Part shown: in pieces, positions 52,501 through 61,419 of the stretch
How the letters are laid out: each line of letters opens with the position of its first letter
Numbering within the stretch: position 1 is the stretch's first letter
From: Fibrobacter sp.
GTDB lineage: Bacteria; Fibrobacterota; Fibrobacteria; Fibrobacterales; Fibrobacteraceae
NCBI GenBank assembly: GCA_017475045.1
Contig: JAFVGH010000140.1
Coordinates: forward strand, 1 to 64,000
Direction: 5' to 3'
DNA length: 64,000 nucleotides
The notes under the pieces: generated by a model
What the model saw: the letters and a program-made list of their open reading frames with translations, nothing else
What the model was told of the DNA's origin: nothing
The model's database searches: none
Made by a program: the position numbers and the translations under genes

Positions 52501-52529
52501 ATTCGAGAATATAGTTAGATTTAACGGAC
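52501..52529. promoter_or_regulatory. Divergent promoter region for two probably leaderless genes
   Basis: Only 29 bases separate the divergent start codons. For xseB the minus strand has TATATT seven bases before ATG. For the lipoprotein operon the plus strand has TAGATT (52516-52521) eight bases before ATG. The palindrome ATATTC GA GAATAT spans 52499-52512. The layout closely matches the region at 5138-5170. Confidence 0.55.
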
Positions 52530-53231
52530 ATGGATTTCGGCATACGGCATAGGGTCCCTGTTTTCAAGCAGGTCCGTCTCCTCTCGGCGGTGACGGCGGC
52601 ATTCCTGCTTTGCGCCTGCTTGGACATTCCGGACTCCCCCGAACCAAAGAACTCGGCATCCTACGTGACCGTCTATGCCATCCAGGAAGACAAGGCCGAT
52701 TCGGCAAGCCTAAAAATCCACCCCGAAAGTCCGGCCACCTTAAAAGCAGAAGTCTACCCCAAGGACCTGGAACCTGAATTAAAATTTGCCTGGTACAGGG
52801 ATTCCTTATTGGGCAACGGCACAAACTTTTCGATTCCAGCCTATGCAGAAGAAGAATCCATTCCAAACAAGCTTGTGGTAAAAGATGGCGAAGGAAATAC
52901 GGCCACCGTCAACTTCGAAATTACGGTCAATAGCCCGCCTACCTTCACCGAGGATTTTTCACCGGCACAGGGCGACACCCTATATGGCACCCCACGAACT
53001 TCCTTTGCCTTCAGCTGGAAAGCCTTTGACAGCGAAGACCGTTCCCTAGACTATGTTCTGGAACTGGACACGGCACACTACTACGTAGGCGCCCTGGAAA
53101 AAATCCAGCAGTCAGGTCTACAGTCAGGAACTCACGTTTTCCGCGTCATCGTGAAAGATTCGGAAGGCGATACCGACACCCTTCCACTGGTCAAGTTCTA
53201 CGTGGTCGACACTTTGGAGGCGAAAAAATGA
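52530..53231 (+). CDS. Lipoprotein with Ig/PKD-like domains (first of three related genes)
   Basis: The 233-residue product has a lipoprotein signal ending FLLCAC. Two beta-sandwich-like repeats follow: the first ends NTATVNFEITVNSPPTF and the second contains FAFSWKAFDSEDRSLDYVLELD. The same order (x-x-V-x-x-PP linker, then F-x-W-x-x-x-D, then Y-x-L-E) recurs in the next two genes. It opens an operon of five genes. The stop overlaps the next start by four bases. Confidence 0.7.
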   Translation: MDFGIRHRVPVFKQVRLLSAVTAAFLLCACLDIPDSPEPKNSASYVTVYAIQEDKADSASLKIHPESPATLKAEVYPKDLEPELKFAWYRDSLLGNGTNFSIPAYAEEESIPNKLVVKDGEGNTATVNFEITVNSPPTFTEDFSPAQGDTLYGTPRTSFAFSWKAFDSEDRSLDYVLELDTAHYYVGALEKIQQSGLQSGTHVFRVIVKDSEGDTDTLPLVKFYVVDTLEAKK

Positions 53232-54649
53232 TATCTCGCCTTCTAAAAATACGGCTTTTCACCATCATCGCCATGGCGAGCCTTTCTGCGCTCACATCCT
53301 GTAGCGACAGCGATCAGTACCTCTACGATGACGAAGATATGGTCGCCCTCCAGGTCCATGCCGAGATGGCACGCACTTTCGAGATTGATTCGGCACGTGT
53401 CAAGGCAGACACGATTACCTCCAAAGACACCATCGTCTTTATCGGAGAAATCACCCCAAGCAGGCAAGCCCACTACCGCGAGTATTACTGGACCCTGGAT
53501 GGCGAGGATTTTTCCAATGACATGAATTTCCGCAAACCCGTCACGAAGGCCGGCTACCACCAGGTATGTTTCGTCGTGACGGACTACTTTGGCGATACCC
53601 TGCGGGACACCCTACACCTTTGGGTAACGAACCCGCCTACCATAGAGCCCCGGGGGTTCATCCCCGCCATAGGGAGCCAGGGTCTTTCCCCAAAAGAAGG
53701 CATCCACTTCGCCTGGCATGGCTACGACCCGGATTCCATCTCGAAAGTGTATTACCGGCTCGAAATTCAGGAACCTCGAGGTATCCGCTATACCGACGAC
53801 CGAAATCCAAAACTCTATACGGTCGGCCATTCTATCCTGGACACCCTTATCGAAACACCGCACTTCACCTACTGGGACAACTCGAATTTCTACCACCGGC
53901 TAGAAAACTTGAAGTTCTACACCTGGAGTGTCCGCGCCATCAACGAGTTCGGCCAGGAATCGGACAGCCTTATCCAGGGGAATTTCTTCACCAAAGGGAT
54001 TCGGAATGAGGGCGGAGTCCAAACGTTCATCCGTTTCTCCAACGAATCCCTTTACGACCGCTACAGCCGTAATGGAAATATCCATCTTGATATTCTGGAT
54101 TCATTGTCAAATCTGGTCGTTGAGCACGAGATTGGTCTAGACACGAATCAATTCGTCGTTTCGCCGCTGAAACCCGGCAAGTACAGAATTATCGCTAGCT
54201 TGTCGAAGCTTACGGATTTTAACCCCGACACCGCCGATGTAGTGGTTCTACCTGGGGAAATCGCCATTGCAGACACGCTACGGCTGCTGGACACCATTCC
54301 GCCATCCAACAAGTACCTCACCCCTGAAGGTCTAGTCCAAGACGTCGATACCCTGGATTTCAAGGACACCCTCCGATTCTACTTTGAAGAACATGGCGGC
54401 AACTTCTACCAGAATTTTTTCTGGAACGGGCAGGAACTGCGAGGCTCCTCTTTCTTCCGTGAAATTTCCTACAATGAGGACCGGACTGCAGACACAGTCT
54501 TCTTAGTGCTACCCAAGACATACAAGAGCTGGACCTACCAGTTACTGTCCATCAGCGCCTATGACTACAGTGGCAATCTGAATTCTAAGACCTACGTCAT
54601 CAGGCCAAGCCTTGAAAGACCCGAACCGGAAGGAGGCAAAGATGAATAG
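53228..54649 (+). CDS. Lipoprotein with Ig/fibronectin-like domains (second of three related genes)
   Basis: The 473-residue product has a lipoprotein signal ending ALTSC (about 21-25). The first domain ends GDTLRDTLHLWVTNPPT, followed by IHFAWHGYDPDS ... YYRLEIQ, matching the domain pair of the preceding protein. A long C-terminal part adds two more beta domains. It is probably an extracellular or periplasmic binding protein. It overlaps its neighbours by four bases upstream and eight bases downstream, so production is tightly coupled. Confidence 0.7.
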   Translation: MISRLLKIRLFTIIAMASLSALTSCSDSDQYLYDDEDMVALQVHAEMARTFEIDSARVKADTITSKDTIVFIGEITPSRQAHYREYYWTLDGEDFSNDMNFRKPVTKAGYHQVCFVVTDYFGDTLRDTLHLWVTNPPTIEPRGFIPAIGSQGLSPKEGIHFAWHGYDPDSISKVYYRLEIQEPRGIRYTDDRNPKLYTVGHSILDTLIETPHFTYWDNSNFYHRLENLKFYTWSVRAINEFGQESDSLIQGNFFTKGIRNEGGVQTFIRFSNESLYDRYSRNGNIHLDILDSLSNLVVEHEIGLDTNQFVVSPLKPGKYRIIASLSKLTDFNPDTADVVVLPGEIAIADTLRLLDTIPPSNKYLTPEGLVQDVDTLDFKDTLRFYFEEHGGNFYQNFFWNGQELRGSSFFREISYNEDRTADTVFLVLPKTYKSWTYQLLSISAYDYSGNLNSKTYVIRPSLERPEPEGGKDE

Positions 54650-56057
54650 ACCTTTCTTTGCCATTGTCCTCACCTGCTTTTTACTGCTTCTTGCCGGCTG
54701 CCGTGAGGATGCCGTAATTTCCAGGACAGGCATCCAGTTCCTGGAACAAGGAATCCAGGTTTCCTTCTGGAACGACGAGGAACATTTTATCCGGTACTCC
54801 GAGCTACTAGACACGCTCTATATCAATCAAGACGAGACAGTCTTATTCACCGCCATTTATGCACTAAACGGAAACAGCATTTCTTCGGATAGCGCCCTAA
54901 ACCTATACCAGTCTCATTACTGGGAACTCGGCGACAGTACATTTAACTCAACCTCATTCGAATACACCTTTGATTCCACCGGATACCGCTTTGGCGTCTT
55001 GAATACCATTGATTTTGCAGGCGACACCCTGAAAGACACCATCCACATTTTTGTGGGCACACCCCTGAGCATCAACCTCGTAACACCCCCTTTGAACGCA
55101 GGCATTGAACCTTTATCCGACGACTATATCGAACTCAACTGGGATATTTCGGGCATTGATCCCTGGGAAAAATCCAGTTGTGCGGTCTACGCCGCAGTCG
55201 CCGAAGGGGTCTCTCTTTCCAGGAATACCCACTGGCTTGACATTCTGGATTCCGTAAGCGCCATTTCCGAAGGCGACTGTAAAAATGGAATGCGCCTCAA
55301 GGGCCCCCTGATTTCGGAAACGTGGCTCGAAATGAACGGCCTCGACCTCAAGGACACGTCTCTCACGGTCTACTGGGGAGTCAAGGCCACGGCTTACACG
55401 GACTTCGGTTTCGAGGAACAGGCCAAGGACGCATCCTCTTTCAATACAAAATTCACAGAAAAGAATGTTTCCGTTCTCCAAGTCAAGCCCATCTACGAAT
55501 CCCTTACTCCGGGTACCAAGGTTTCCACGAAGATTACCTTGATCAATGCTCGGGGAGATACCCTAAAAACCGTAAACTTTGAAAATCCCAACGAGGCCAT
55601 CAACATCAACGCACAACCCCAAAGCGGGCTACGCATCTACGCATACGAGACGAAACTTACGGACTACGAGGCTACACCCATCACAATCGATGTTCCCGAG
55701 CGTTCCATGCTCCGCCTAGCCGACAGTATCATCTTTACAGACAAGATTCCACCTAAGGCATCTCCAGTAAAGACGGCCCTCGCACTCACCGACAGCGTCC
55801 GGTTCTACTTTATGGACAACGGGTCGGGAATCAACCCCACCCAGAAAAAATTTGTCATTGCCGATTTCGACACCGTCAACGCGGCCTACGAATCAAACAT
55901 CCTTTCTTTTGCCAACCCTTGCCGTAAGGATTGTCAAATAAGGGTTCCTATCCCGGATAACGCCAGGAACCGCAATTCCGAATTGTTCTGGAGAATGGTT
56001 CCGGATAAGGATTCACTCCGGATTACAGGTCCCTTTGTCCAAACGGAGGATCAATAA
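54642..56057 (+). CDS. Lipoprotein with Ig-like domains (third of three related genes)
   Basis: The 471-residue product is started at ATG 54642, preceded by GGAGG and beginning the signal MNRPFFAIVLTCFLLLLAGC. The middle has GDTLKDTIHIFVGTPLS and IELNWDISGIDP, paralogous to the two preceding proteins, and the C-terminal part resembles that of the second (DSIIFTDKIPPKAS compares with DTLRLLDTIPPSN). The family is otherwise unknown. The stop overlaps the next start by one base (TAATG). Confidence 0.7.
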   Translation: MNRPFFAIVLTCFLLLLAGCREDAVISRTGIQFLEQGIQVSFWNDEEHFIRYSELLDTLYINQDETVLFTAIYALNGNSISSDSALNLYQSHYWELGDSTFNSTSFEYTFDSTGYRFGVLNTIDFAGDTLKDTIHIFVGTPLSINLVTPPLNAGIEPLSDDYIELNWDISGIDPWEKSSCAVYAAVAEGVSLSRNTHWLDILDSVSAISEGDCKNGMRLKGPLISETWLEMNGLDLKDTSLTVYWGVKATAYTDFGFEEQAKDASSFNTKFTEKNVSVLQVKPIYESLTPGTKVSTKITLINARGDTLKTVNFENPNEAININAQPQSGLRIYAYETKLTDYEATPITIDVPERSMLRLADSIIFTDKIPPKASPVKTALALTDSVRFYFMDNGSGINPTQKKFVIADFDTVNAAYESNILSFANPCRKDCQIRVPIPDNARNRNSELFWRMVPDKDSLRITGPFVQTEDQ

Positions 56058-56695
56058 TGATTTCCAAGAAAGTCATTCCCGCCCTCCTCCTTCTGCTTTT
56101 GGGACTTAGTTTCGCTGACGAAAGCACTCCTCGGGAGCGTTACCTGCATGTGTCCACCAACCCTTCCGGCGCAGACCTCTATGTAGGCGACGCCCATCCC
56201 AATTTTTCCAGCGCCCCTGATTACCGGATTCCAGCATTTGTCCCCGTCCCCCTGGACAAGGACCAGATTCTCATCACCCTGTTCCGCCCCGATTTCAAGG
56301 ACACGAGCATCAGCGTGACCTTATCCCCGAAGGACACCTCGTTCCTGATCGTAGCCCTTTCGCCCGCCTTTGACGAGACCCTTCTGCAAGAACAGCAAGC
56401 CGATCTCCGTCACCGGAGCAGGCGCAGTCTGGGCCAGCGGCTCATGATAGCCTCCCTAGTTCCACTGGCAGCAAGCGCCGTCGCTGCCGGTGTCACCGCG
56501 TACGAAATCAACAAGGCCAACGACTGCAAAAAAGACATCAAGAACACAGTCATTACATCGGGAGACAACTATCAACAAGACAAAAAGGATTTCAAGGAAT
56601 ACCGCGACAACGCAAAAACAGCCAAAAAAACAACACTAGTTTCCCTTGTAGCTGGCGGTATTATCCTTTCTGTCGGACTCTTGCTATCTTTCTAG
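56057..56695 (+). CDS. PEGA-domain membrane protein (short form)
   Basis: The 212-residue product has a signal peptide (about 1-20), a PEGA-type domain (YLHVSTNPSGADLYVGD ... TLFRPDFKDTSISVTL), then two membrane segments (about 131-152 and 192-211) separated by a charged loop. The C-terminal module (helix, loop containing SGDNYQQDKKDFKEY, helix ending LLLSF) is repeated in the next protein. PEGA domains are thought to bind envelope polymers. Confidence 0.75.
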   Translation: MISKKVIPALLLLLLGLSFADESTPRERYLHVSTNPSGADLYVGDAHPNFSSAPDYRIPAFVPVPLDKDQILITLFRPDFKDTSISVTLSPKDTSFLIVALSPAFDETLLQEQQADLRHRSRRSLGQRLMIASLVPLAASAVAAGVTAYEINKANDCKKDIKNTVITSGDNYQQDKKDFKEYRDNAKTAKKTTLVSLVAGGIILSVGLLLSF

Positions 56696-56702
56696 GTATA
56701 TC

Positions 56703-58253
56703 ATGAAACCCACGAGCCTTGCCTTAATCCTCTTGCTTGTCCAGGTCCTGCTTGCCGCAGAACCACAAGGCCCATCTGTCAATGTGGAACTCCTTTCCGG
56801 CACCAAGCAGAAAGCCCAGTTCCTCGGCATTGTAAACGACACCGTTCAGTTGGGAGGTTTCATCAACAATAAGTTTACCGTGGTCCGAATCGCCAGGGAA
56901 AAGTTCAAGTCCATCGTAGATTCTTCGGGCACGGATTTGCTCCAGGCTCCCACCGCCGATTCCGTTCAGACAGTCCCTTCGGACAGCGCCGCCATTGCAA
57001 GCGATTCTACACAGATTCAACCAGACTCTCTCAAAACAGATGACGCCCCAAAGCCACTCGAACTTTCTTCGCACACCGTTCTGGTAAGCTTTGAAGACGA
57101 AATCGCCGACTCAGCCTTGGTATTGCAGATCAACACTCTTGCGGCAAGGTTCCTTTTGGAAAGTGGCGAAAAAATCCATATTCTCAAGAAAAAAGACATT
57201 CCCGACTGTAGTGACAACATCTGCCTTCAAGAAAAGCTTTCTTCCTTAGGCGCCACAACCATCTACTTTGGAAAAATAGTTTCCGTTCACAAAAAAGATT
57301 CCCTAGAACTCCAGCTTGTACGGGTGGTCTACGAAGAGGAACTGCCCACCCTCTACAAGAGCTCCTTAAAGATTTCCCGTTCCAAGGCCGTAAGCGACCT
57401 CCTTTCTAACGATCAACTACGGATTTTCCTGCTAGAAGCCCAAGGCAAAGACGCCTCTGACCTGAGGGAGAACAAGGGATACCTTTACATCGAGACCGAC
57501 CCCGAAGGGGTGACTCTTTCGATGCCCGAAGAAAATGCACTTTGCAGGTCGCCCTGCACCATTCCCGTCACAGACACAGCCACAGTAACCATCCATGCAT
57601 ACTGGAACGTAGATCAACACCTGTGGGGAGGTTCGGTCACCATGCGTCCGGTCATGGGAGACACCGTAAGGGCCTCTATAAAGCTGAAACGTGTCAATCC
57701 AGAACTACGCATTATCACCAACCCGGCAGGAGCGGAAATTTTCTCCAGCAAGGGCGAAATCACTAAGCACAGCAAGACCATCGGTGTCACGCCAGCTCGC
57801 TACCCCATTCTGGAACCGGGTATTGTCAAATTCAAGCTCCGCAAATTCGGATTCAAGGACACCCTGATGACTGTCTATGTTCCACCAGTCTCCGACGTAA
57901 CCGTCAATGTAAACATGGAACAGGAAAACCAGTTCGGCGAGATTCAGAAGCAACAGGAATGGGAAAAAGCCCGCAAGAAAATCCGTCTGGGCCACACCAT
58001 GATGGGAATCTCTATCGCGCCCATAATCGTAGGCGCCCTGTTCACCTACCTCGGCCAGCTGGATTACGACGATGCCAAGGACATCAAGGACGAACTGAAC
58101 TATTCCGCTACTGTAGGCGGGGAATTCTACCAGGAAAAAGTGAAAGAGAACAAAGACCTGGTTCACGACGGAGACCAGAAAACCATCATAGGTCTTACAC
58201 TCATTGGGGCCGGCATCCTTGTTCTCGGGGTCGGGTTCTTTATTTCTTTCTAG
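56703..58253 (+). CDS. PEGA-domain membrane protein (long form)
   Basis: The 516-residue product has a signal peptide (about 1-19), then a short SH3/Sm-like strand domain (TKQKAQFLGIVNDTVQLGG), a low-complexity Ser/Asp stretch, and an alpha/beta domain (TVLVSFEDEIADSALV ... GATTIYFGKIVSV) resembling periplasmic TolB/CsgG-like N-domains. Two PEGA-type repeats follow (YIETDPEGVTLSMPE; RIITNPAGAEIFSSKG), then the same two-helix module as in the preceding gene (VGGEFYQEKVKENKDL loop, ending GFFISF). It ends the compact operon that starts at 52530. Confidence 0.75.
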   Translation: MKPTSLALILLLVQVLLAAEPQGPSVNVELLSGTKQKAQFLGIVNDTVQLGGFINNKFTVVRIAREKFKSIVDSSGTDLLQAPTADSVQTVPSDSAAIASDSTQIQPDSLKTDDAPKPLELSSHTVLVSFEDEIADSALVLQINTLAARFLLESGEKIHILKKKDIPDCSDNICLQEKLSSLGATTIYFGKIVSVHKKDSLELQLVRVVYEEELPTLYKSSLKISRSKAVSDLLSNDQLRIFLLEAQGKDASDLRENKGYLYIETDPEGVTLSMPEENALCRSPCTIPVTDTATVTIHAYWNVDQHLWGGSVTMRPVMGDTVRASIKLKRVNPELRIITNPAGAEIFSSKGEITKHSKTIGVTPARYPILEPGIVKFKLRKFGFKDTLMTVYVPPVSDVTVNVNMEQENQFGEIQKQQEWEKARKKIRLGHTMMGISIAPIIVGALFTYLGQLDYDDAKDIKDELNYSATVGGEFYQEKVKENKDLVHDGDQKTIIGLTLIGAGILVLGVGFFISF

Positions 58254-58342
58254 AAACAATCCTCCAAAACCGCCTAGAAAACCCGCGCATTCCACTTTAG
58301 CAGGGGTGGGAAAATCCCCCGAAAAAGCTAAATTGTGGTGCG

Positions 58343-59896
58343 ATGCGTAAAGTATTACTTATTTCTCTGTTTTTTGCCGTGGCTACCATGGCAGCCGATT
58401 TCGAGCGCTCCAATTGGAGAATGCAGCTCTATGTGCAAGGTGAAGTCGCCTTTTTGAATTTCCAGGACAAGAATCCCGAACTCCTGCTGGACAAGATTGA
58501 CAAGGAGTTGATGACCTTCCCCATCAATGCGGGTTTCCTCTGGAGCCCCCTCATTACCCCCTTCTACAAGGCCGACATTCCCTTCACCATCTGGCTTGGT
58601 GTGGAAGTCAATTCCATCCAGTTTGGCGAAATCGCCAAAGACCCTAAGTTCTACTTTGAAAGCGACAACTGCGACAAGACCACAGGCTGCGGTGACGCCA
58701 ACAAGGGCGAATCCCTTTCCTTCCGTTCTTACGCCCCCTCTGTTCTGGCCGGTTTTTCGTTTAATTTGATTGGCGGTTTAGACATTAGACTGCTTGGTGG
58801 CTACGGCTTCCATTTCTTCTCGTTCTACGACGAACGTTTTTCCCACACAGACCAGAAGACCACAGTTCTCCCCACCGCTTTTGCCTCTGGTGCACTTGAG
58901 TACAAGGTCGGAGAACTATTCAAGGATATCGACTTCAAGATCGGCGTTAACGTCCGCAGGGAATTCCTGCCTTACGAAGACATCAAGGCCACCGGAAAGG
59001 CCCCCAAGACCAACGAAGACGCAAGCATTCCCGCCGGCTATTCCGGCATCGAATTCGACAAGATATCCTACAAATGGCCCGTACGTGTCGGGTTGGAGCT
59101 CTCTCTTGATTTCGGTCGTGAAAGCCGCAGGGACCGCCGCATGAGGTTCGTGCTCCATGACCGCGACGACGTGCTCCGCAAGAACAGCGAAGTCAAGGAC
59201 ACCCTCTCCGACTGGGACTGCATGGCCATCGAGCGCGACTACCGGTTCTTCCTGGACGAAGACGGCAACCTGCCCGACATGAGCGAAGCCTTCACCAAGA
59301 CCCAGTTCTCCGATGTGCTGGAAAGCTTCCTCGCCTTCTGCCACCCCGAGGACCTGGCCACCAAGGAAAAGCTTTACGCCACCCTGGATACCGGAAAGGT
59401 CCAGTTGAAGGAATACCAGACTCGTCAAGAAGATTCTCGTTTCGAACAGGTTATGTCCAGCAACGATCCCGAAATGCTCGCCATGTACCTGGAATACTAT
59501 CCGGACTCTCCCCACAGAGCCGAGGTGGAAGCCAAGCTGCAGGTGCTGGGTGAATACCACAAGTTCCGCGAGATCCAGGCCCAGAACACCTTCAAGGCCT
59601 ACCTCACCTACCTGAACGACAATCCCAACGGAGCCTTCCGTGACGAAGCCGAAGCAGGAATCTTCGAACTGGTCAAGGGCAGTGGCCGCCTGAAGGATTA
59701 CGAAATTTACCTCAAGCGCTTCCCCGAAGGCAAGTTCGTTGAAGAAGCCAAGGCAGCACTCAAGAACGCCGACGCCTCTGCACCTTCCATGATCGAGGTC
59801 CAGACCGGCGAGAGCGAAGAAGAAGTCGAGAAGGCCCCTGCCAAAAAGCAGAACAAGAAGGCCTCCAAAAAGGCTAAGGGCAAGAAAAAGAAATAA
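58343..59896 (+). CDS. Outer-membrane barrel protein with periplasmic TPR-like repeats and basic tail
   Basis: The 517-residue product has a signal peptide (MRKVLLISLFFAVATMAA), a barrel-like first half with strand pairs (SFRSYAPSVLAGFSFNLIGGLDIRLLGGYGFHFFSF cut into short strands) up to about 265, and helical repeats of the kind found in TolB/YbgF-like TPR proteins (YLEYYPDSPHRAEVEAKL, YLTYLNDNPNGAFRDEAE, YLKRFPEGKFVEEAKAAL). A Lys-rich tail ends it. TAAATT (58329-58334) ends eight bases before the ATG without a Shine-Dalgarno site, so it is transcribed separately from the preceding operon. A terminator follows. Confidence 0.7.
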   Translation: MRKVLLISLFFAVATMAADFERSNWRMQLYVQGEVAFLNFQDKNPELLLDKIDKELMTFPINAGFLWSPLITPFYKADIPFTIWLGVEVNSIQFGEIAKDPKFYFESDNCDKTTGCGDANKGESLSFRSYAPSVLAGFSFNLIGGLDIRLLGGYGFHFFSFYDERFSHTDQKTTVLPTAFASGALEYKVGELFKDIDFKIGVNVRREFLPYEDIKATGKAPKTNEDASIPAGYSGIEFDKISYKWPVRVGLELSLDFGRESRRDRRMRFVLHDRDDVLRKNSEVKDTLSDWDCMAIERDYRFFLDEDGNLPDMSEAFTKTQFSDVLESFLAFCHPEDLATKEKLYATLDTGKVQLKEYQTRQEDSRFEQVMSSNDPEMLAMYLEYYPDSPHRAEVEAKLQVLGEYHKFREIQAQNTFKAYLTYLNDNPNGAFRDEAEAGIFELVKGSGRLKDYEIYLKRFPEGKFVEEAKAALKNADASAPSMIEVQTGESEEEVEKAPAKKQNKKASKKAKGKKKK

Positions 59897-59936: not shown

Positions 59937-60677
59937 ATGAAACTGAAGACAATCGCTATTCTTCTAGCCTTGTTCTGCGCGTTTGCCGCTGCACAGCCAG
60001 GCGCTGAAACCACCCTACAGAATTCATCCGCCGTGCAAGACGCGGCTTCTGCAGGCATTTACACCCGGATTATCGACTGGTACAACGACAACCTGAACTA
60101 CGGCACCATAACACTGCTTATGGCCGTGGAAAGTTCGTTCATTCCCTTTCCCTCGGAACTGGTGGTTCCCCCTGCAGCCTACAAGGCCCTGCAGCCAGGC
60201 TCCAACCTGAGCATCGTCCTGATTGTTCTGTTTGCCAGCATGGGCGCCCTCATCGGGGCGTTTATCAATTACTTTCTAGCTAAATTCCTAGGTCGTCCTA
60301 TTGTGTACAAATTCGCCGATTCCAGACTCGGTCACTTCTTGCTGATAGACACCCAGAAAGTTGAAAAGGCAGAAAACTACTTCCGTGACCATGGAGCCAT
60401 CTCCACTTTCGTCGGAAGGCTCATTACGGTCATCAGGCAGTTGATTTCCATACCGGCCGGGCTTTCCAACATGAAGCTCTTGCCCTTTACCCTGTACACG
60501 TTCCTAGGCGCCACTATCTGGAACTGCGTCCTTGCCGTTCTTGGCTACCTGGCCCACGGACAAAAAGACATTATCGAAAAATACAACTCCGAACTGGCAA
60601 TCGCCTTGCTTGCCTTCGGAGCCTTGTTCATCGGGTACATGGTGTGGAGCGCAGTCAAGCCGCGCAAAAAATCCTAG
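59937..60677 (+). CDS. DedA-family membrane protein
   Basis: The 246-residue protein has an N-terminal signal-like segment (about 1-19) and then the DedA/VTT domain: MAVESSFIPFPSELVVPP, FLAKFLGRPIV, and GRLITVIRQLISIPAG with the conserved arginines. DedA proteins flip or move lipid carriers such as undecaprenyl phosphate or phosphatidylethanolamine. The added N-terminal segment is unusual in length. The convergent FISUMP gene overlaps its end by four bases. Confidence 0.88.
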   Translation: MKLKTIAILLALFCAFAAAQPGAETTLQNSSAVQDAASAGIYTRIIDWYNDNLNYGTITLLMAVESSFIPFPSELVVPPAAYKALQPGSNLSIVLIVLFASMGALIGAFINYFLAKFLGRPIVYKFADSRLGHFLLIDTQKVEKAENYFRDHGAISTFVGRLITVIRQLISIPAGLSNMKLLPFTLYTFLGATIWNCVLAVLGYLAHGQKDIIEKYNSELAIALLAFGALFIGYMVWSAVKPRKKS

Positions 60678-61342
60678 TCCTTCACACAGCGGACAGAGAA
60701 AGCGTTATCCGTAGAATACTTGTTCTCGTGGATACTCTCGTCGCCAAATTCCAGTAGACGGGCATAAGCTTTCTTGCTCTTCTTCCCTTTTTCCTTGGAT
60801 GAGCTCCAGAACAAGGCACGTTCTTTTGCCTTGTCCGAGCGTCCTTCTTTGGAAACATATCCCGCAGGCAAAGCCGAGAAGCCAAACTCATCTGTACCCG
60901 TATTTATAACTTCGTACTCATCCAAGTAAATAGCTTCACCTGTATGCTTGTCATAAATTTTTTTCTTTTTCTTTTTGACCTTCCAGTCATCCTTCGATCT
61001 CAAAGCGTTCCCCGGCTTTGACTTGGTGTTTTCGGATACATAAGACACCAGGTCCCGCCATTCCGAACGTGAAGGGAGGTGCCATCCTTCGGGACAGGCC
61101 TTTTCAGCTTTTTTCCAGGTATAGAGCCGGCCGTATTTTTTGCAATTGTCCGTCTTGCGGTCGTAGCACCAAGAGTCATCCATATGCAAATTGAGATTCT
61201 CCGCCATCCAGGTTTGCTTTCCCAATTTGACGGTCTTGTATGTTTTTCCATCGCGGGAATCCTTAAAGGTTCCCTTGGCAGGAGCGGCAAAGGACACGGA
61301 AACAAGGCTCACCGCAAAAAGGCACACAATCCACTTTTTCAT
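60674..61342 (-). CDS. Exported FISUMP-domain protein
   Basis: The 222-residue product is started at ATG 61342, preceded by GAGGGTATCTGT and beginning the signal MKKWIVCLFAVSLVSVSFAA. The FISUMP domain (TIGR02145) fills the rest: YKTVKLGKQTWMAENLNL, CPEGWHLPSRSEWRDL, GFSALPAGY, ALFWSSS, AFSVRCVKD. Unlike the other copy in this window it has no lipobox or Ser-rich linker. A Lys-rich insert (KVKKKKKKIYDKH) interrupts the domain. Confidence 0.9.
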   Translation of the reverse strand: MKKWIVCLFAVSLVSVSFAAPAKGTFKDSRDGKTYKTVKLGKQTWMAENLNLHMDDSWCYDRKTDNCKKYGRLYTWKKAEKACPEGWHLPSRSEWRDLVSYVSENTKSKPGNALRSKDDWKVKKKKKKIYDKHTGEAIYLDEYEVINTGTDEFGFSALPAGYVSKEGRSDKAKERALFWSSSKEKGKKSKKAYARLLEFGDESIHENKYSTDNAFSVRCVKD

Positions 61343-61419
61343 ACAGATACCCTCTTCTTTATTCTTAAATAAAATATATAAAGACTGCGCGATTTGCAAA
61401 CAGATTTGAAGAGATCAGG

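Follow-up and report, generated by a model that had tools for sequence, protein, structure and literature searches.

A conserved five-gene envelope unit encoding three lipoproteins and two predicted PEGA-type proteins in Fibrobacteraceae

The attachment of Fibrobacter to cellulose and its degradation of this polymer are still unresolved, and much of the envelope of these bacteria is uncharacterised. CsgG and LpoB have the same broad alpha/beta fold as PelC and GNA1162. Among the known systems closest to the locus described here is Pel exopolysaccharide export, in which PelC is a lipoprotein anchored by its acyl chains, and a ring of PelC is coupled to PelB, a TPR-plus-barrel protein (PMC12141448). 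For comparison with this pair we used (i) a PelC-type alpha/beta fold, (ii) an acyl-chain lipoprotein anchor, (iii) a TPR-barrel PelB partner of 16 strands, and (iv) a dodecameric ring. In Fibrobacter itself, envelope proteomics of F. succinogenes S85 has recorded numerous uncharacterised lipoproteins along with a single small PEGA protein (PMC4619616, PMC6851124); FSU_1783 is a 20-kDa PEGA protein in these data (PMC4619616).

We analysed five genes, designated LP1, LP2, LP3, PG4, and PG5, and an adjoining gene, BT6, in a 64,000-nucleotide stretch of a Fibrobacter sp. genome (the window; Table 1). Measured against the Pel pair, PG5 carries at residues ~125-246 a predicted domain with the PelC alpha/beta fold (Foldseek probability 1.00, TMt 0.45-0.52, and E ~2e-3 to 1e-2 against PelC and GNA1162, for this single domain only), and a possible TPR-plus-barrel protein, BT6, is encoded next door. 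However, PG5 is not a lipoprotein, its predicted anchor being a C-terminal hairpin; a PelB-type partner is not a regular companion, as at least 23 genomes carry the unit but no detectable BT6; no Pel synthase was seen; and PG5 has, besides the hydrophobic hairpin, PEGA domains and a barrel domain at its N-terminus. PG5 likewise resembles GNA1162 (TMt 0.52 by Foldseek) but differs from the GNA1162/CsgG/LpoB group in its anchor and partners, and a Pfam scan of 28 PG5 orthologues returned no match to the LpoB, CsgG, or GNA1162 families. With the PEGA-domain proteins (PF08308) it has in common the PEGA domain and export, whereas no description was found of a PEGA protein that also has a PelC-like domain and a hairpin and is encoded in an operon with Ig-like lipoproteins. 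The lipoproteins contain the same generic domain types as known PKD/FN3/Ig-like surface lipoproteins, but they match no named lipoprotein family and form three tandem paralogues in a fixed order. No paper describing the set was found, in keeping with a preliminary description of this DNA that did not recognise it as a described system; nor did the open-licence literature, to which our search was confined, yield a paper joining Fibrobacter and the PEGA domain, which is weak evidence of novelty.

A five-gene unit conserved in Fibrobacteraceae

The unit spans 52530-58253 on the forward strand. Its five open reading frames overlap or nearly touch, as had been described: LP1 and LP2 overlap by four bases (ATGA), LP2 and LP3 by eight (the LP3 ATG lies at 54642), and LP3 and PG4 by one (TAATG), while seven bases separate PG4 from PG5. 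A divergent oppF-type ABC ATPase gene flanks the unit on one side and a dedA-type gene on the other, with BT6 beginning 89 bases 3' of PG5. A signal peptide or lipobox is present in each of the five products, and comparison with three close relatives gave dN/dS values of 0.05-0.18 across all five genes (0.10-0.16 for LP1), indicating purifying selection.

Table 1. Genes of the unit and the adjoining gene, with positions in the window, and predicted domains of PG5
Feature	Position	Strand	Product	Domains or other features	Basis
LP1	52530..53231	+	233 aa lipoprotein, lipobox LCAC-LDIP	PKD-like and FN3-like domain	ORF, orthologues at 22 loci
LP2	53228..54649	+	473 aa lipoprotein, LTSC-SDSD	PKD-like, FN3-like, carboxypeptidase-regulatory-like, and Ig-like regions (order inferred)	ORF
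LP3	54642..56057	+	471 aa lipoprotein, LAGC-REDA	Predicted Ig-like beta-sandwich rod, colinear with LP2	ORF, AlphaFold model
PG4	56057..56695	+	212 aa, signal peptide	PEGA-like domain, C-terminal hydrophobic helical hairpin	ORF, hhalign, hydrophobicity of 18 orthologues
PG5	56703..58253	+	516 aa, signal peptide	Multi-domain, C-terminal hydrophobic hairpin	Pfam PEGA, model, Foldseek
PG5 domains	residues of PG5			Signal helix; small beta-barrel 25-73; disordered linker; alpha/beta 125-246; two PEGA-like beta domains 259-404; hydrophobic hairpin (long helices) 411-516	Model
BT6	58343..59896	+	517 aa exported protein adjoining the unit	Lys-rich tail; barrel-like N-terminus and TPR-like C-terminus by eye	

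Searches of 168 Fibrobacterota genomes detected PG5 in 115 (in a few by a paralogue only), LP2 in 111, and LP3 in 107. The matches to LP3 were confined to Fibrobacteraceae and those to LP2 nearly so, while PG5 matches beyond the family were weak. Nearly all Fibrobacteraceae have the unit, which the searches did not find elsewhere in the phylum. Wherever the best matches to both LP3 and PG5 could be mapped, they lay on the same contig and strand (93/93 genomes), separated by a median of 670 bases, which is room for PG4. LP2 was 5' of LP3 in all 94 genomes mapped. The order LP1-LP2-LP3-PG4-PG5 was also read directly at loci from many genera, the short form described below excepted. Conservation of gene order in other genomes, on which the preliminary description had staked its reading, is therefore borne out, and we conclude that the five genes are a conserved unit under purifying selection.

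This unit occurs in at least four different neighbourhoods. In most Fibrobacter it lies between oppF and BT6/dedA; in a second genus, genes for a serine acetyltransferase and an HhH-GPD (nth-like) protein precede it; in a third, a beta-helix gene and an lptF/G gene lie nearby; and in a fourth a reduced unit adjoins an amino-acid-kinase (argB-like) gene. As the unit stays together across these settings, its linkage is not just inherited context. The reduced unit, present in two genera, encodes two short lipoproteins (~130-240 residues) and a PG5 of ~400 residues that is without the N-terminal barrel, and it may represent a minimal core.

The gene following the unit behaves differently. BT6 was detected in 71 of the 168 genomes, lies 36-128 bases 3' of PG5 in 66 of the 68 in which it was mapped, and is more conserved than the unit (mean column identity 67%). 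At least 23 genomes have the unit without a detectable BT6, namely 18 Fibrobacter (near-complete assemblies among them) and five from other genera, and in one further genome BT6 is on a different contig from the unit. The preliminary description had cast the BT6 product as a possible outer-membrane part of the assembly; because so many genomes keep the unit without it, we consider BT6 to be a linked neighbour rather than a core or obligate part, and it may serve as a helper. Its supposed separate promoter also found no support, as no sigma-70-type match lies inside the 89-base gap after PG5. A stem-loop in this gap is not conserved. The barrel-like and TPR-like regions were assigned by eye, and a Pfam scan of BT6 supported neither. 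The BT6 orthologues have an invariant WDCMAIERDY stretch, and most have the Lys-rich tail.

Predicted domains of the five products

Profile-profile comparison with hhalign relates LP1 to LP2 at 98.4%, LP1 to LP3 at 96.7%, and LP2 to LP3 at 100% across 393 columns. By this measure the three lipoproteins are homologous, and they are predicted to be made of Ig-like (PKD/FN3-type) domains; a lack of domains common to the three, which would have told against the preliminary description, was thus not what we observed. The grounds for kinship are the colinear profile matches and not the short motifs first thought to unite the three proteins: the V-x-x-PP linker is found in LP1 (VNSPP) and LP2 (VTNPP) but not in LP3 (VGTPL), the F-x-W-x-x-x-D strand is likewise in LP1 and LP2 but not in LP3 (LNWDISGID), and exact GDTL-x-DT repeats occur in LP2 and LP3 but not in LP1. 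These motifs look like ordinary PKD/FN3-type strand motifs. Neither do the lipoproteins grow steadily from 233 to 473 residues along the operon, the second and third being of nearly equal length (473 and 471 residues).

A simple pattern recognised a lipobox signal peptide in 18 of 23 LP1, 23 of 28 LP2, and 24 of 25 LP3 family members, some of the misses being due to mis-set start codons. Pfam and NCBIfam scans gave no family name for any of the three lipoproteins; scattered CarboxypepD_reg and PKD matches (Pfam) were seen among LP2 members. In the AlphaFold model of LP3 (mb852587de321; pLDDT 83.6), Ig-like domains are strung into a rod, for which PDB structures offer generic Ig-like matches, and the LP3 profile found no significant relative among PDB sequences.

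Turning to the remaining two products, PG4 aligns by hhalign (99.9% over 184 columns) with a stretch of PG5 that comprises its second PEGA domain and its hairpin, so that PG4 is, on profile evidence, a homologue of the PG5 C-terminal region. Both had been called PEGA proteins. This holds for PG5, which passes the Pfam PEGA (PF08308) cut-off (30.4 bits versus 20.8, E 3.8e-7) and whose orthologues have PEGA matches in 27 of 28 cases, whereas PG4 has no PEGA match of its own in the Pfam scan and is PEGA-like solely via its homology to PG5. Identity of PG4 with FSU_1783 was considered and set aside, as the two were not matched and PG4 differs in size. The helix-loop-helix membrane module attributed to both proteins was confirmed in all the orthologues of PG4 and PG5 that we examined, with a loop of 40-48 residues; it forms a conserved hydrophobic hairpin that ends each protein, and the final Phe is invariant in both alignments.

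The single-chain model of PG5 (m61b627fb2b82; 28 sequences) has a mean pLDDT of 82.0 and a pTM of 0.44, and because the latter is low, the relative placement of the domains is uncertain. The architecture it predicts is new here: a small beta-barrel, a PelC/GNA1162-like alpha/beta domain in which C169 and C174 are conserved, PEGA domains, and the C-terminal hairpin, behind a signal peptide that has no lipobox Cys. The top two Foldseek matches of PG5, both to 6fwv, were set aside (probability 1.00 but TM 0.13 and rmsd ~20) and probably reflect strings of Ig-like domains. The PG5 profile found no significant relative among PDB sequences, and a narrower PG5 alignment scanned on genome contigs returned only Fibrobacter and close relatives, a scan that distant relatives elsewhere could escape. 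A distant PG5 paralogue lies at L054:4837-6516 (contig C53 of genome G000), near DUF1007, RsmB/F-type methyltransferase, and sulfatase-domain genes; its neighbours are unrelated, and none is a lipoprotein like LP1-LP3. Solo PG5 paralogues of similar kind are present in other genera (L061, L062).

Possible roles of the unit

Our best guess, held tentatively, is that the unit encodes an envelope assembly specific to Fibrobacteraceae, a trans-envelope scaffold; we infer the complex, its membrane assignment, the bridging, and the task. PG5 and PG4 would be exported and anchored by their C-terminal hairpins, most likely in the inner membrane, for which these segments look hydrophobic enough. Their PEGA-type domains would reach into the periplasm, as would the PelC/GNA1162-like domain of PG5; domains related to the latter form rings or dock partner proteins. 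LP1-LP3 would be outer-membrane lipoproteins whose Ig-like rods contact the PG proteins, and the resulting scaffold could tether the two membranes or organise an envelope process. Speaking for such an assembly are the fixed gene order (93/93 and 94/94), the touching frames, the retention of the unit in at least four neighbourhoods, the export signals in all five products, and purifying selection; consistent with it, at the level of predicted structure, are the conserved hairpin with its invariant final Phe, the PelC/GNA1162-like domain of PG5, and the LP3 rod. Against it, Lys/Arg-rich residues immediately precede the first hairpin helix in the PG4 and PG5 orthologues (56057-58253) and would be on the periplasmic side, a poor fit to the positive-inside rule; the PelC-like match is to one modelled domain (E ~2e-3, TM ~0.5); and for the lipoproteins a near absence of Asp at +2 is the sole pointer to the outer membrane and away from the inner one. 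As first proposed, the products may form a single assembly that spans the membrane. The accompanying proposal of surface-polymer binding drew no evidence, and neither did adhesion or motility; no ligand can be read from domains as generic as the PEGA and Ig-like ones, and no substrate or partner was identified by any search or model here.

Among the alternatives, an LpoB-like regulator of cell-wall or envelope synthesis, in which the PG5 alpha/beta domain contacts an enzyme in the periplasm, with the lipoproteins sensing or gating it, appears unlikely. LpoB is of the same broad fold class as the Foldseek matches PelC and GNA1162, and near-universal presence in the family is what a housekeeping envelope role would predict. 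However, no peptidoglycan gene is linked in the neighbourhoods read, PG5 with its predicted hairpin anchor differs from the outer-membrane lipoprotein LpoB, and no LpoB profile matched the 28 PG5 orthologues.

We think it quite unlikely that the unit is a PelC/PelB-like accessory for exporting or positioning a surface polymer, with PG5 as periplasmic ring, the lipoproteins lining or guarding the exit, and BT6 as channel where present. PelC is among the best matches of the PG5 domain, and BT6, by eye barrel-like and TPR-like, follows PG5 in most genomes, recalling the TPR-plus-barrel PelB and its PelC ring (PMC12141448). Yet the unit stands without a detectable BT6 in 23 genomes or more, no synthase or polymer gene was found in the neighbourhoods read, PG5 is no lipoprotein, and the barrel-like part of BT6 (by eye, ~250 residues) is small for a polymer channel.

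Surface adhesion, with LP1-LP3 facing outward to bind plant polysaccharide or other cells and PG4 and PG5 as assembly factors, is similarly improbable. Ig-like rods do resemble adhesins, but such folds are generic, and Pfam domain scans of the LP proteins and their family members found no carbohydrate-binding module. Acidic residues directly follow the lipid-bearing Cys in LP2 (CSDSD), LP3 (CREDA), and orthologues (CGDD). Such stretches recall the surface-export signals of Bacteroidota lipoproteins, but we know of no such signal established in Fibrobacterota.

Still less probable is a family-specific machine in which a PelC-like PG5 ring, PEGA collars, and Ig-like lipoprotein struts would export or assemble a surface component needed for plant-fibre colonisation. 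A part in the Fibrobacter type IX secretion system is highly improbable: SprA is present in 159 of the 168 genomes, the source genome included, and is thus phylum-wide whereas the unit is confined to the family (LP3 in 107/168), and no gene of that system adjoins the unit at the loci read.

As an envelope unit ordered across nearly the whole family and missing from the rest of the phylum, the five genes of the proposed scaffold are a well-defined target for work on adhesion, envelope integrity, or export.

Two further features of the window were recorded. A T/A-rich, TAnATTT-like box occurs shortly 5' of the LP1 and BT6 starts (52510-52530 and 58325-58342), recurs in several relatives, and could be a Bacteroidota-like promoter element; an upstream TAnnTTT box was too unspecific to be called a promoter. 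Beyond BT6, positions 60674-61399 encode a protein with a FISUMP (Fib_succ_major) domain (TIGR02145, E 7e-54).
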